This document shows positions 36,729 to 39,360 of a stretch of 64,000 bases of DNA, piece by piece. The notes below the pieces were generated by a model. It saw only the letters and a program-made list of their open reading frames with translations, was not told the origin of the DNA and did no database searches. Positions within the stretch are counted from its first letter, which is position 1. The number at the start of each line of letters is the position of its first letter. The stretch comes from Burkholderiales bacterium. Lineage in GTDB: Bacteria > Pseudomonadota > Gammaproteobacteria > Burkholderiales > Usitatibacteraceae. The stretch covers positions 62,001-126,000 of the forward strand of contig JANYBL010000109.1 of the NCBI GenBank assembly GCA_025360815.1. The letters are read 5' to 3'. The position numbers and the translations under genes were made by a program.

Positions 36729-37937
36729 ATGCTAAAGAATTATTCTGCAGGGCCAGCCACGGCATGGGAAAGCCTGGCAAAATCAGCTTTGAGCATTGGC
36801 AGGAAGGGTGACACCAAATCCGCGTTGGCGATATTGAACGACGCGCTTGACGCGGCCCGGCGTTCGAACGAGCCGCGTGGAGAAGCGCTCTCGCTCAACT
36901 GTGCCGCGATCGTGCATGTGATCCGTGGCGATTATTGGACATCGCTGGCAACCAGTATCGATGCATATTCCCTAGCGCATCAGCAGAATTTACCGGCCGA
37001 TCAGGCAAACGCGATGGTTAACCTCGCGGCGGCGTTCGTGTTGCTGGCGCCAGATGATGCGCTACCGTTCCTGCGCGAGGCGCACCGCATTGCGCAGCGC
37101 GTGGGCGACGCTGGATTGTTGTCGCGTGCGCATAATATGCTTGGGGTGGCGCTGGGGGATATGGGTAGGTTTGACGAGGCAGAACTCAATTTTGATATGG
37201 CGCAGGCTATGACCGATGGTGTCAACGGCGATGATGCGAATAACAATGCAGATGAGCTAAATCCTTTCAATCACTTCAATCCTTTTAACCCGCTGAATCC
37301 AATGCGCCTCCAGACGAATCTAGCCAATCTCATGCGTAAACGAGCCAAAGCAGCGCGGCGGACGGGTGGCGCAGATGCGTTGGCATCTTGCGTGGCGCTG
37401 TGTGCGCATGCACGAACCATCATCAATCGTATCGAAGGCGAGGCCGAGGCAAGTCAAAAATTGCCGTTGCTCATTGATATTCTGATGGTGGCGGGACTGA
37501 TTGATCTTGCCGATGACAGGCCGGGCAGCGGCTTGCGGAAGCTGGAGCAATCATGGCAACTATCAATTGCCACAAAGCAGCGGGCTGCGTTGCCGACGCT
37601 GGGCGTGCATATTGGACGCGTGCATATCGGACGTTTGGAAATGGCGGCAAGTCGCGCACAAGCAGTCGAACAAACGCTGACGGTGGCGTTTAACGAGTCC
37701 CTAAATTATCGCCCATCCCCCAAAGCCGAGGCGCTATGTCTATTGCTGGCGGAAGTGCGTGCCGTAATGGGTGACGCTACGGGTGAATCCGGTTGGCAAC
37801 GCGAGGCATTGAAGGCGCGGGTCATCTTTAACGGTATTAAAAGCGATGCGTTGAGACAGCTGGAGAAATTGGCGAAAATATCGCCGAGCTTGTTTCTTGA
37901 CTGCCAGCTAGCCGCCCGGCCGAGCACCGGTCGTTAA
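36729..37937 (+). CDS. TPR-like helical-repeat protein of unknown function
   Basis: 402 residues, no signal peptide. Helical repeats resembling TPRs fill most of the chain: A-W-E-S-L-A-K-S-A-L-S-I-G-R-K-G-D, A-L-S-L-N-C-A-A-I-V, A-N-A-M-V-N-L-A-A-A-F, and S-R-A-H-N-M-L-G-V-A-L-G-D-M-G-R-F-D-E-A-E, the last being a good TPR consensus. The chain is interrupted near 178-192 by a low-complexity N-P-F-type stretch from a 9-bp tandem repeat (37260-37304), and near 293-302 by a duplicated V-H-I-G-R unit (37606-37635). It is probably a cytoplasmic scaffold; partners are unknown. The next gene, 124 nt on, encodes the kinase-CNB protein. Confidence 0.65.
   Translation: MLKNYSAGPATAWESLAKSALSIGRKGDTKSALAILNDALDAARRSNEPRGEALSLNCAAIVHVIRGDYWTSLATSIDAYSLAHQQNLPADQANAMVNLAAAFVLLAPDDALPFLREAHRIAQRVGDAGLLSRAHNMLGVALGDMGRFDEAELNFDMAQAMTDGVNGDDANNNADELNPFNHFNPFNPLNPMRLQTNLANLMRKRAKAARRTGGADALASCVALCAHARTIINRIEGEAEASQKLPLLIDILMVAGLIDLADDRPGSGLRKLEQSWQLSIATKQRAALPTLGVHIGRVHIGRLEMAASRAQAVEQTLTVAFNESLNYRPSPKAEALCLLLAEVRAVMGDATGESGWQREALKARVIFNGIKSDALRQLEKLAKISPSLFLDCQLAARPSTGR
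37260..37304 (+). repeat. 9-bp tandem repeat in the TPR-like gene
   Basis: About five 9-bp units starting AATCCTTTC, AATCACTTC, AATCCTTTT, AACCCGCTG, encoding N-P-F / N-H-F / N-P-F / N-P-L / N-P. It is frame-preserving. Confidence 0.8.
37606..37635 (+). repeat. 15-bp tandem duplication in the TPR-like gene
   Basis: Two adjacent copies of GTGCATATNGGACGN encode V-H-I-G-R twice. The copies differ at two third-codon positions, so the duplication is not brand new. Confidence 0.8.
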
Positions 37938-38061: not shown

Positions 38062-39360
38062 ATGGCGCAAATAATCAAACAGCCCGAAACCATCGGCAAA
38101 TACCGCGTGATCCGCGAACTCGGACGTGGTGCGACGGGCGCAGTCTATCTTGCTGAGGATAGTTTTAACCATCGCAATGTCGCCATCAAGCTGATGTTCC
38201 ATGACATGCTGCAAGATAAAGAGGACGGTGCACTTTATAAAAGCATGTTCTTAAGCGAGGCATCCCTCGCGGGCAAAATCATTCACCCGCATATTGTCAC
38301 GATTTTTGATGCGGTTGTTGAAGATGCGATGAGCTATATCGTGATGGAATATGTTGAAGGCGGCACGCTCGAAAAATATTGCAAACCCGAGCACCGGTTT
38401 GACAATCACACGATCGTTGAGATCATTTTTAAATGTGTTCGCGCACTTGCCTTTGCCAATATGGAGGGTTTGACCCATCGGGATTTAAAGCCCGGTAATA
38501 TTTTGTATAAAAGCGGCTCCGATATTAAGGTGGCCGATTTCGGCGCAGCCTTGAGCAAGGTGTCGGATCGCACGCAAATTGCCGCGGTCGGCTCGCCGCT
38601 CTTTATGGCGCCGGAAATTATTACCGGCGCGAAAGCGACGGTACAATCCGATATCTACGCATTGGGCATGGTGATGTACATGCTGCTCGCCGGACGTCCA
38701 CCGTTTGAGGCCACCAATGCCGCGAGTCTCGCCTATCAGATTGTCAACCATGAGCCAGAACCGCCTTCGCGCTATAGTAGTGATGTGACGGCTGCGATTG
38801 AAGATATCGTCAAGACCGCGATGGCAAAAGATATTGCCCACCGTTACGCTTCTTGGGAAGCATTTGGTAAAGACTTGGCCGAGCTTTGGCAGGGCGAAGG
38901 TACGCCGCAAAAAACCAAAGGTGAAATGTCTGATACCGAGCAGTTTAGCTTTCTCAAAACCCTTTCGTTTTTTCGTGGCTTTCCGGAAAACGAATTATGG
39001 GAAGTGCTCAAAATCAGCAAATGGCGCTCGTTTAAAGCTGGGACAGTTCTGATCAAGGAAGGTGACCAAGGCGATTCATTTTTCATCCTCGCCAGCGGCA
39101 GCGTGAAAGTGATGCGCGGCAAACGCTTGCTCAATGTGCTCGGCACAGGTGATTGCTTTGGCGAGATGTCTTACTTAGCAAGACGCGATCTTCCGCGTTC
39201 GGCAACCCTTTCTACCGCGACCGATTGTGTGGTGATGAAAGTACGTTCACAAGATTTGAGCGAAGCCTCGTTTAACTGCCGCCAGCTATTTGACCGCAAG
39301 TTTTTAGAGACGCTCGTCGAGCGGCTGGAGACGGCCAACCAGCAGTTGGCCGTGACTTGA
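38062..39360 (+). CDS. Ser/Thr protein kinase with C-terminal cyclic-nucleotide-binding domain
   Basis: 432 residues. The Hanks-type kinase domain spans about 13-275: Gly loop G-R-G-A-T-G-A-V, Lys43 in V-A-I-K, H139-R-D-L-K-P-G-N catalytic loop with Asp141, D159-F-G, and A-P-E. A short linker leads to a cNMP-binding domain (about 300-405) whose phosphate-binding cassette F-G-E-M-S...P-R-S-A retains Glu368 and Arg379, as in cAMP/cGMP-binding proteins. There is no transmembrane helix, so it is cytosolic. This is the eukaryotic PKG pair of domains in reverse order, suggesting a kinase switched by a cyclic nucleotide. Its substrate may be the neighbouring TPR-like protein, which is only a guess from position. 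Confidence 0.92.
   Translation: MAQIIKQPETIGKYRVIRELGRGATGAVYLAEDSFNHRNVAIKLMFHDMLQDKEDGALYKSMFLSEASLAGKIIHPHIVTIFDAVVEDAMSYIVMEYVEGGTLEKYCKPEHRFDNHTIVEIIFKCVRALAFANMEGLTHRDLKPGNILYKSGSDIKVADFGAALSKVSDRTQIAAVGSPLFMAPEIITGAKATVQSDIYALGMVMYMLLAGRPPFEATNAASLAYQIVNHEPEPPSRYSSDVTAAIEDIVKTAMAKDIAHRYASWEAFGKDLAELWQGEGTPQKTKGEMSDTEQFSFLKTLSFFRGFPENELWEVLKISKWRSFKAGTVLIKEGDQGDSFFILASGSVKVMRGKRLLNVLGTGDCFGEMSYLARRDLPRSATLSTATDCVVMKVRSQDLSEASFNCRQLFDRKFLETLVERLETANQQLAVT

Follow-up and report, generated by a model that had tools for sequence, protein, structure and literature searches.

Can a bacterial Ser/Thr kinase be controlled directly by a cyclic nucleotide? Most of what is known of bacterial cAMP concerns CRP-type transcription factors, and for bacterial Hanks-type kinases it concerns membrane sensors. 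The question is raised by one gene in a 64,000-nucleotide stretch of DNA (the window) from a member of the Usitatibacteraceae (Burkholderiales), for which an earlier note had proposed such control from the sequence alone.

Architecture of the kinase-CNB protein

The gene occupies positions 38062–39360 of the window's forward strand, which carries all window features given with coordinates below. It starts with ATG and encodes 432 amino acids plus a stop codon, and in an alignment with L047, the closest relative, the first Met residues coincide. A Pfam scan places a Hanks-type Ser/Thr kinase domain (Pfam accession PF00069, 168.5 bits, cut-off 31.7) at residues 14–264 (38101–38853) and a cyclic nucleotide-binding (CNB) domain (cNMP_binding, Pfam accession PF00027, 72 bits, cut-off 27.5) at residues 322–401 (39025–39264). 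These matches, together with catalytic motifs that are all in place, bear out the earlier description of a complete kinase followed by a CNB domain, and the open reading frame, Glu368 and Arg379 had been located and numbered correctly. A flexible linker (residues 278–287, 38893–38922) follows the kinase domain. Helices at residues 291–318 (38932–39015), which we take to be N3A-like, lead into the CNB barrel, and a single helix at residues 404–431 (39271–39354) ends the chain. Promoter and terminator scans found about as many sites as in shuffled sequence.

No membrane segment was detected in the protein (the top 19-residue Kyte-Doolittle mean is 1.26) and the Pfam scan returned no PASTA domain, in agreement with the earlier claim that both kinds of sensor are missing. 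The protein is soluble and combines a kinase, one CNB domain and a C-terminal helix in a single chain. PASTA repeats are the sensor part of PknB/Stk1-type kinases. With no segment hydrophobic enough for a membrane helix and no PASTA match, the kinase-CNB protein falls outside the PASTA-kinase (PknB/Stk1 equivalog) class. Its score against NCBIfam NF033483 (259.7 bits) is under that family's cut-off of 450, and none of its best 25 NCBIfam matches is above cut-off.

A model of the full-length protein has a mean pLDDT of 83.5 and a pTM of 0.63, with the activation loop (residues 166–174) and the linker below 50. Because of this pTM and the disordered linker, contacts between the kinase and the CNB domain are not readable from the model.

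Distribution and conservation of the family

We searched 61 related genomes with the window protein and obtained matches at E 1e-30 in 46. Counting by hand as carriers those genomes whose listed match extends into the CNB domain, we identified at least 39 carriers among the 61 (at least 27 of 28 in the window's family and at least 12 of 33 outside it) and at least 36 among 184 class genomes besides the window's. On a different contig, the window genome itself encodes a further copy with 45% identity. At a stricter threshold (E 1e-90), 3 of 249 genomes in a phylum-wide sample, the window's own included, have a match running into the CNB domain, all in the window's class; the match of a fourth genome is kinase-only.

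We assembled 57 homologues, defined as reading frames scoring 200 bits or more, from 55 regions picked from the match list, which holds further full-length matches, and from the window; the lower-scoring L106 (92.8 bits) and L092 (56.6 bits) were excluded. All 57 come from the window's order and share the kinase-then-CNB arrangement. A scan with the C-terminal part of the protein across one genome per species (84,980 species) yielded 45 loci. In 39 of these the kinase-CNB frame is complete or almost so (the L147 frame starts at residue 22), two run off the end of a contig (L130 is frame-broken as well) and four match in the CNB region only, including loci from deltaproteobacterial and myxococcal bacteria. 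The window protein and 38 loci with a kinase-CNB frame make up the 39 rows of a second alignment, A4. The 57 homologues and the 39 loci with a kinase-CNB frame rule out a chance fusion or an assembly error. We also rejected spread on plasmids: four plasmid records match P0001 at E 1e-40, but no match extends past residue 296, so that none shows the CNB domain.

A further set of 26 frames represents the rest of the window's class, except for L201, which is from the window's order. Rows of this set were added at fixed alignment width and may hide insertions, and its cassettes were read from the raw stretches. The cassette Arg is kept in 22 of the 26 frames and replaced by Ser or Gln in the other four (L198, L209, L211 and L212), which are natural candidates for ligand-blind variants. 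Six class genomes contain two kinase-CNB genes near each other (L202, L203, L204, L205, L206 and L214), and these pairs may cooperate.

The family is compact, with about 430 residues, one enzyme and one sensor in a soluble protein. As it has members in isolates (Rhodocyclus tenuis strain 2761 and Methylohalomonas lacus HMT 1), it is testable at the bench.

A PknB-like kinase domain

The window kinase retains the Gly-rich loop, Lys43, Glu66, HRD at residues 139–141, Asn146 and DFG at residues 159–161. This is the motif set of Hanks-type kinases, from which Ser/Thr phosphotransfer is predicted. Conservation across the 57 homologues is nearly complete for Lys43 (57), Glu66 (57), His139 (57), Arg140 (56), Asp141 (56), Asn146 (57) and Asp159 (57); Phe160 (53) is the loosest catalytic-motif residue, and Glu185 is kept in 52. 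Lys43, Glu66, HRD, Asn146 and Asp159 are invariant in A4. Thr171 in the activation loop (38572–38574) is a candidate autophosphorylation site, being Thr in 52 of the 57 homologues and in all 39 rows of A4; the position is variable in the set of 26 frames.

The kinase of the full-length model is most similar to PknB of Mycobacterium tuberculosis among the top 1000 chains returned by Foldseek (VIA Z 31.9, rmsd 2.0, 258 aligned residues, 34% identity). PknB thus ranks first by fold, and it does so by sequence as well. Apicomplexan PKG is a close second by sequence, probably through several summed stretches.

A CNB domain with an intact cassette and a CRP-like C-terminal helix

The CNB domain modelled alone (residues 286–432) has a pLDDT of 90.2 and ends in one helix (404–431). 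Its 50 listed fold matches span Z 15.5–17.9 and, with PF00027, place it in the CNB family. The best are PycTIR with cUMP (17.9), GlxR with cAMP (17.4), a PKA regulatory subunit (17.1) and M. tuberculosis CRP with cAMP (17.0); we treat matches within one Z unit as tied. The CNB core also aligns by sequence with the domains of PKG and PKA. In the helices that precede the barrel, F303, F304, F307, E311, W313 and E314 are invariant in A4.

The phosphate-binding cassette runs from Glu368 to Arg379 (39163–39198); in GEMSYLARRDLPRSAT, residue 368 is Glu and residue 379 is Arg. Arg379 is present in all 57 homologues and Glu368 in 56, with Asp in the remaining one, and both are invariant in A4. The cassette Glu of PKA holds the ribose 2'-hydroxyl. 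The cAMP phosphate is coordinated by Arg209 in PKA, as part of a 2007 survey of CNB domains records (PMC2246266), so the earlier note was right that both cassette residues are present and imprecise in calling Glu368 phosphate-binding.

The spacing between these residues is 11 in 45 of the 57 homologues, 12 in eight, 10 in three and 13 in one, whereas it is 9 in PKG, and PKG alignments to the window CNB domain show a 2-residue gap at the cassette. The PKG spacing of 9 does occur in 19 rows of the wider set of 26 frames. As aligned, the longer cassette is typical of family members in the window's order.

Among the best 60 listed sequence matches, those that reach the last few residues of the window protein are CRP/FNR proteins and PycTIR, and several CRP-type chains align structurally up to the final residue of the CNB model. 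Arg421 (55 of 57 homologues) and Leu422 (56 of 57) are conserved in this long C-terminal helix, and both are invariant in A4. These features suggest CRP-like pairing through the helix, which would make it a likely dimer helix.

Origin and genomic context

In a tree of kinase domains, the 57 kinase-CNB rows are split from 25 other kinase domains by a branch with an SH-aLRT of 98; this is a quick tree with no bootstrap, and some outside rows sit on long branches. The outside domains comprise six from the window genome, none of which has a cNMP_binding match nearby, and 19 fetched matches ending before the CNB domain, chosen by match end alone. The kinase-CNB fusion is best read, from this grouping of sequences, as one event followed by duplication.

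The window gene is preceded by genes for formate-THF ligase and a TPR protein and followed by genes for a MAPEG protein and DUF456. Putative glycolate oxidase genes (glcD, glcE and glcF) lie beyond DUF456, and parts of this gene order recur in the closest relatives. Neighborhoods in GC-rich genomes are partly wrong where longest-ORF calling picked spurious antisense frames, and we re-ranked the frames there by codon composition. The TPR protein (Pfam TPR_12, 36729–37937) is encoded directly upstream of the kinase. A homologue holds this position in four of 15 orthologous loci (the window, L050, L054 and L055; coordinate differences 39–125) and lies 1153 bases upstream in L048, while two of the 15 (L049 and L058) contain no upstream sequence. 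This association weakly suggests the TPR protein as a possible partner or substrate of the kinase.

Paralogues from other subgroups have different neighbors. A chemoreceptor gene adjoins the kinase-CNB gene in L074, L079 and L089. The L074 paralogue is also beside CheY- and CheA-type genes, and that of L100 is beside a CheY-CheA-CheW-CheR-CheD-CheB row, hinting at a link to motility. A divergent paralogue is followed directly by a gene for a 739-residue CHAT-domain protein (L090:8618–10837), and the ends of the two genes overlap.

A broader proposal, for which we put the odds slightly below even, is that beta/gammaproteobacteria evolved a cAMP-dependent protein kinase of their own, separately from PKA and PKG. 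A PknB-like kinase would have been fused with a CRP-like sensor, giving a second cAMP output besides transcription and, in some genomes, paralogues tied to chemotaxis operons.

Cyclases in carrier genomes

We identified six class III cyclase matches in the window genome. Surroundings were fetched for five, of which three match the motif pattern and have K...D or K...S/T, a signature that we take to be adenylyl-type, and two have no pattern match. Two of the genome's class III cyclases (L164 and L165) have long N-terminal regions, which resemble a CHASE2-type sensor. No class I cyclase was found in the 61 genomes.

Carriers are rich in class III cyclases. Taking one genome per family outside the window's family, the median is 6.5 in 12 carriers versus 1.0 in 21 non-carriers (Mann-Whitney p 0.0004; per Mb p 0.001), in raw counts over genomes that ignore kinship and with cyclase and GGDEF numbers copied by hand. 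GGDEF proteins, used as a control in the same genomes, do not differ (18.5 in carriers versus 21 in non-carriers, p 0.93), and carrier genomes tend to be larger (4.5 versus 3.0 Mb, p 0.056). The 21 non-carriers include seven with kinase matches; in a re-search with the family profile, all of these matches stop before the CNB barrel, at or before profile position 312. Across the class, with carriers taken from the matches listed, a class III cyclase is present in 32 of 36 carriers versus 92 of 148 other genomes. Two of the four remaining carriers have a class I cyclase (G121 and G126) and two have neither class (G178 and G208).

The link between carriers and cyclases is real in these counts and fits cAMP control without proving it. 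The window genome has 11 cNMP_binding matches in total, and its other CNB proteins could explain the cyclases by themselves; CRP-type proteins could share the link. Neither a class I nor a class III cyclase was detected in G178 (96% complete), G208 (95%) and G033 (68%), all of which retain the cassette Arg. Conversely, of the four genomes whose frame has lost the Arg, three (G205, G217 and G111) were counted as carriers and also have class III cyclases, so cyclases alone are no marker of a working sensor. The loss of the Arg in four of 26 frames and the two carriers without a class I or III cyclase imply that the sensor is not needed everywhere.

Proposed mechanism and alternatives

The intact, conserved CNB domain and the cyclase-rich genomes make direct cyclic-nucleotide control of the kinase likely, as the earlier note had proposed. 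Our preferred reading, to which we assign a probability of roughly 0.58, is that a soluble, PknB-like Ser/Thr kinase works as a dimer and is regulated in cis by its C-terminal CNB domain and CRP-like C-terminal helix, in response to a ligand of the cAMP type. In this mechanism, class III cyclases of the cell would make the most likely ligand, 3',5'-cAMP, which would bind the CNB domain with the phosphate contacting Arg379 and the ribose contacting Glu368. The bound ligand would move or order the C-terminal helix, through which two protein molecules would pair. Each of the paired kinase domains would then phosphorylate the activation loop of the other (at Thr171), so that the ligand would activate the kinase rather than inhibit it, and the active kinase would presumably act on a substrate.

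This reading builds on what the sequences show: both domains are present, their catalytic and ligand residues are intact and conserved, the kinase domains group together, and the same genome has cyclase genes. We counted against it the carriers without a cyclase, the loss of the cassette Arg in four of 26 frames, a cassette longer than that of PKG and the larger genomes of carriers.

It is somewhat unlikely that the CNB domain is instead a dimerization or docking module, or binds a ligand that is not a cyclic nucleotide (such as a nucleoside), leaving the kinase outside cyclic-nucleotide control. Trypanosome PKA offers a precedent, as its response to nucleosides is described in parts of two reports (PMC6440977, PMC10959531), and such a role would accommodate both the class members that have lost the Arg and the two nearly complete carrier genomes with no detected class I or III cyclase. 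It accounts less well for an Arg379 that is kept in every one of the 57 homologues and 39 A4 rows, and for carriers that are rich in cyclases and not in GGDEF proteins.

Control by cGMP, cCMP or cUMP rather than cAMP is improbable, given that three cyclases of the window genome carry the Lys typical of adenylyl-type enzymes. Some features would nevertheless suit another nucleotide: the top-ranked CNB match is PycTIR with cUMP, though tied within one Z unit, and the cassette is longer than PKG's. Position 380, directly after the cassette Arg, is Ser in the window protein and varies among the 57 homologues (Ser in 32, Thr in 14, others in 11). Ser or Thr at this position is common in cGMP-specific kinases, yet Ser also occurs in cAMP-activated CRP, according to part of a study of Bdellovibrio Bd1971 (PMC6717892).

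An anti-phage system in which a nucleotide signal switches on a kinase effector is suggested by PADLOC matches that include PD-T4-6 and MADS kinases (up to 236 bits) and by the likeness of the CNB domain to a Pycsar receptor, but we reject it as highly improbable because the best 25 of 40 PADLOC matches all lie within residues 7–294, the kinase part, and the closest orthologues sit in a housekeeping neighborhood (formate-THF ligase, MAPEG, DUF456 and glycolate oxidase genes).

Comparison with known systems

Control of the kinase by cAMP, as we prefer to read it, would combine parts that are known from separate systems. PknB/Stk1-type kinases resemble the window protein in kinase fold and sequence; the window protein differs in having no membrane segment or PASTA repeats and in carrying a CNB domain in the sensor's place. 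CRP and GlxR regulators share its CNB domain and long C-terminal helix, whereas the window protein has a kinase in front and ends in that helix without a DNA-binding domain. The effector of PycTIR, the Pycsar receptor, is a TIR domain. PycTIR is the top-ranked CNB structure match (Z 17.9, 142 aligned residues, 22% identity), but the effector in the window protein is a kinase and its neighborhood is not defence-like.

Bdellovibrio provides another bacterial enzyme controlled by a CNB domain. Bd1971 is a cAMP-sensing EAL enzyme whose CNB domain is similar to kinase CNB domains and pairs in the manner of CRP; it differs from the window protein in its N-terminal CNB domain and its c-di-GMP phosphodiesterase activity, as far as part of its description goes (PMC6717892). 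The joining of kinase and CNB domain is already implied in Planctomycetota, where part of one report points to CNB among the domains associated with Ser/Thr kinases (PMC11032199). These proteins belong to another phylum, and what they share with the window protein in that part of the report is the pairing of domains. In part of a further report, Pkinase or cNMP_binding domains appear in drawings of bacterial PP2C phosphatases (PMC12088040). The bacterial fusions named in part of the 2007 CNB survey are to DNA-binding domains, histidine kinases, CBS domains and AAA ATPases (PMC2246266), and the terms 'cyclic nucleotide' and 'cNMP' are absent from the main text, as available in part, of a 2005 survey of more than 600 prokaryotic kinases (PMC1262709). 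Among the matches listed in the open-licence literature, we found no experiments on any bacterial Ser/Thr kinase that has a CNB domain.

PKG likewise has a Ser/Thr kinase and CNB domains in one chain, and the earlier note had described the window protein as PKG-like with its domains reversed. The reversal holds, as PKG has tandem CNB domains before the kinase and the window protein has its CNB domain behind. Kinship with PKG is not supported: the kinase is PknB-like, a single CNB domain lies behind it, and the solved structures nearest to that domain, tied within one Z unit, are PycTIR, GlxR, a PKA regulatory subunit and M. tuberculosis CRP. 'PKG in reverse' fits as an analogy between working parts. 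If the proposed control is true, a kinase with a conserved cyclic-nucleotide sensor would link bacterial cAMP directly to Hanks-type kinases, an independently invented counterpart of the link that PKA and PKG provide in eukaryotes.
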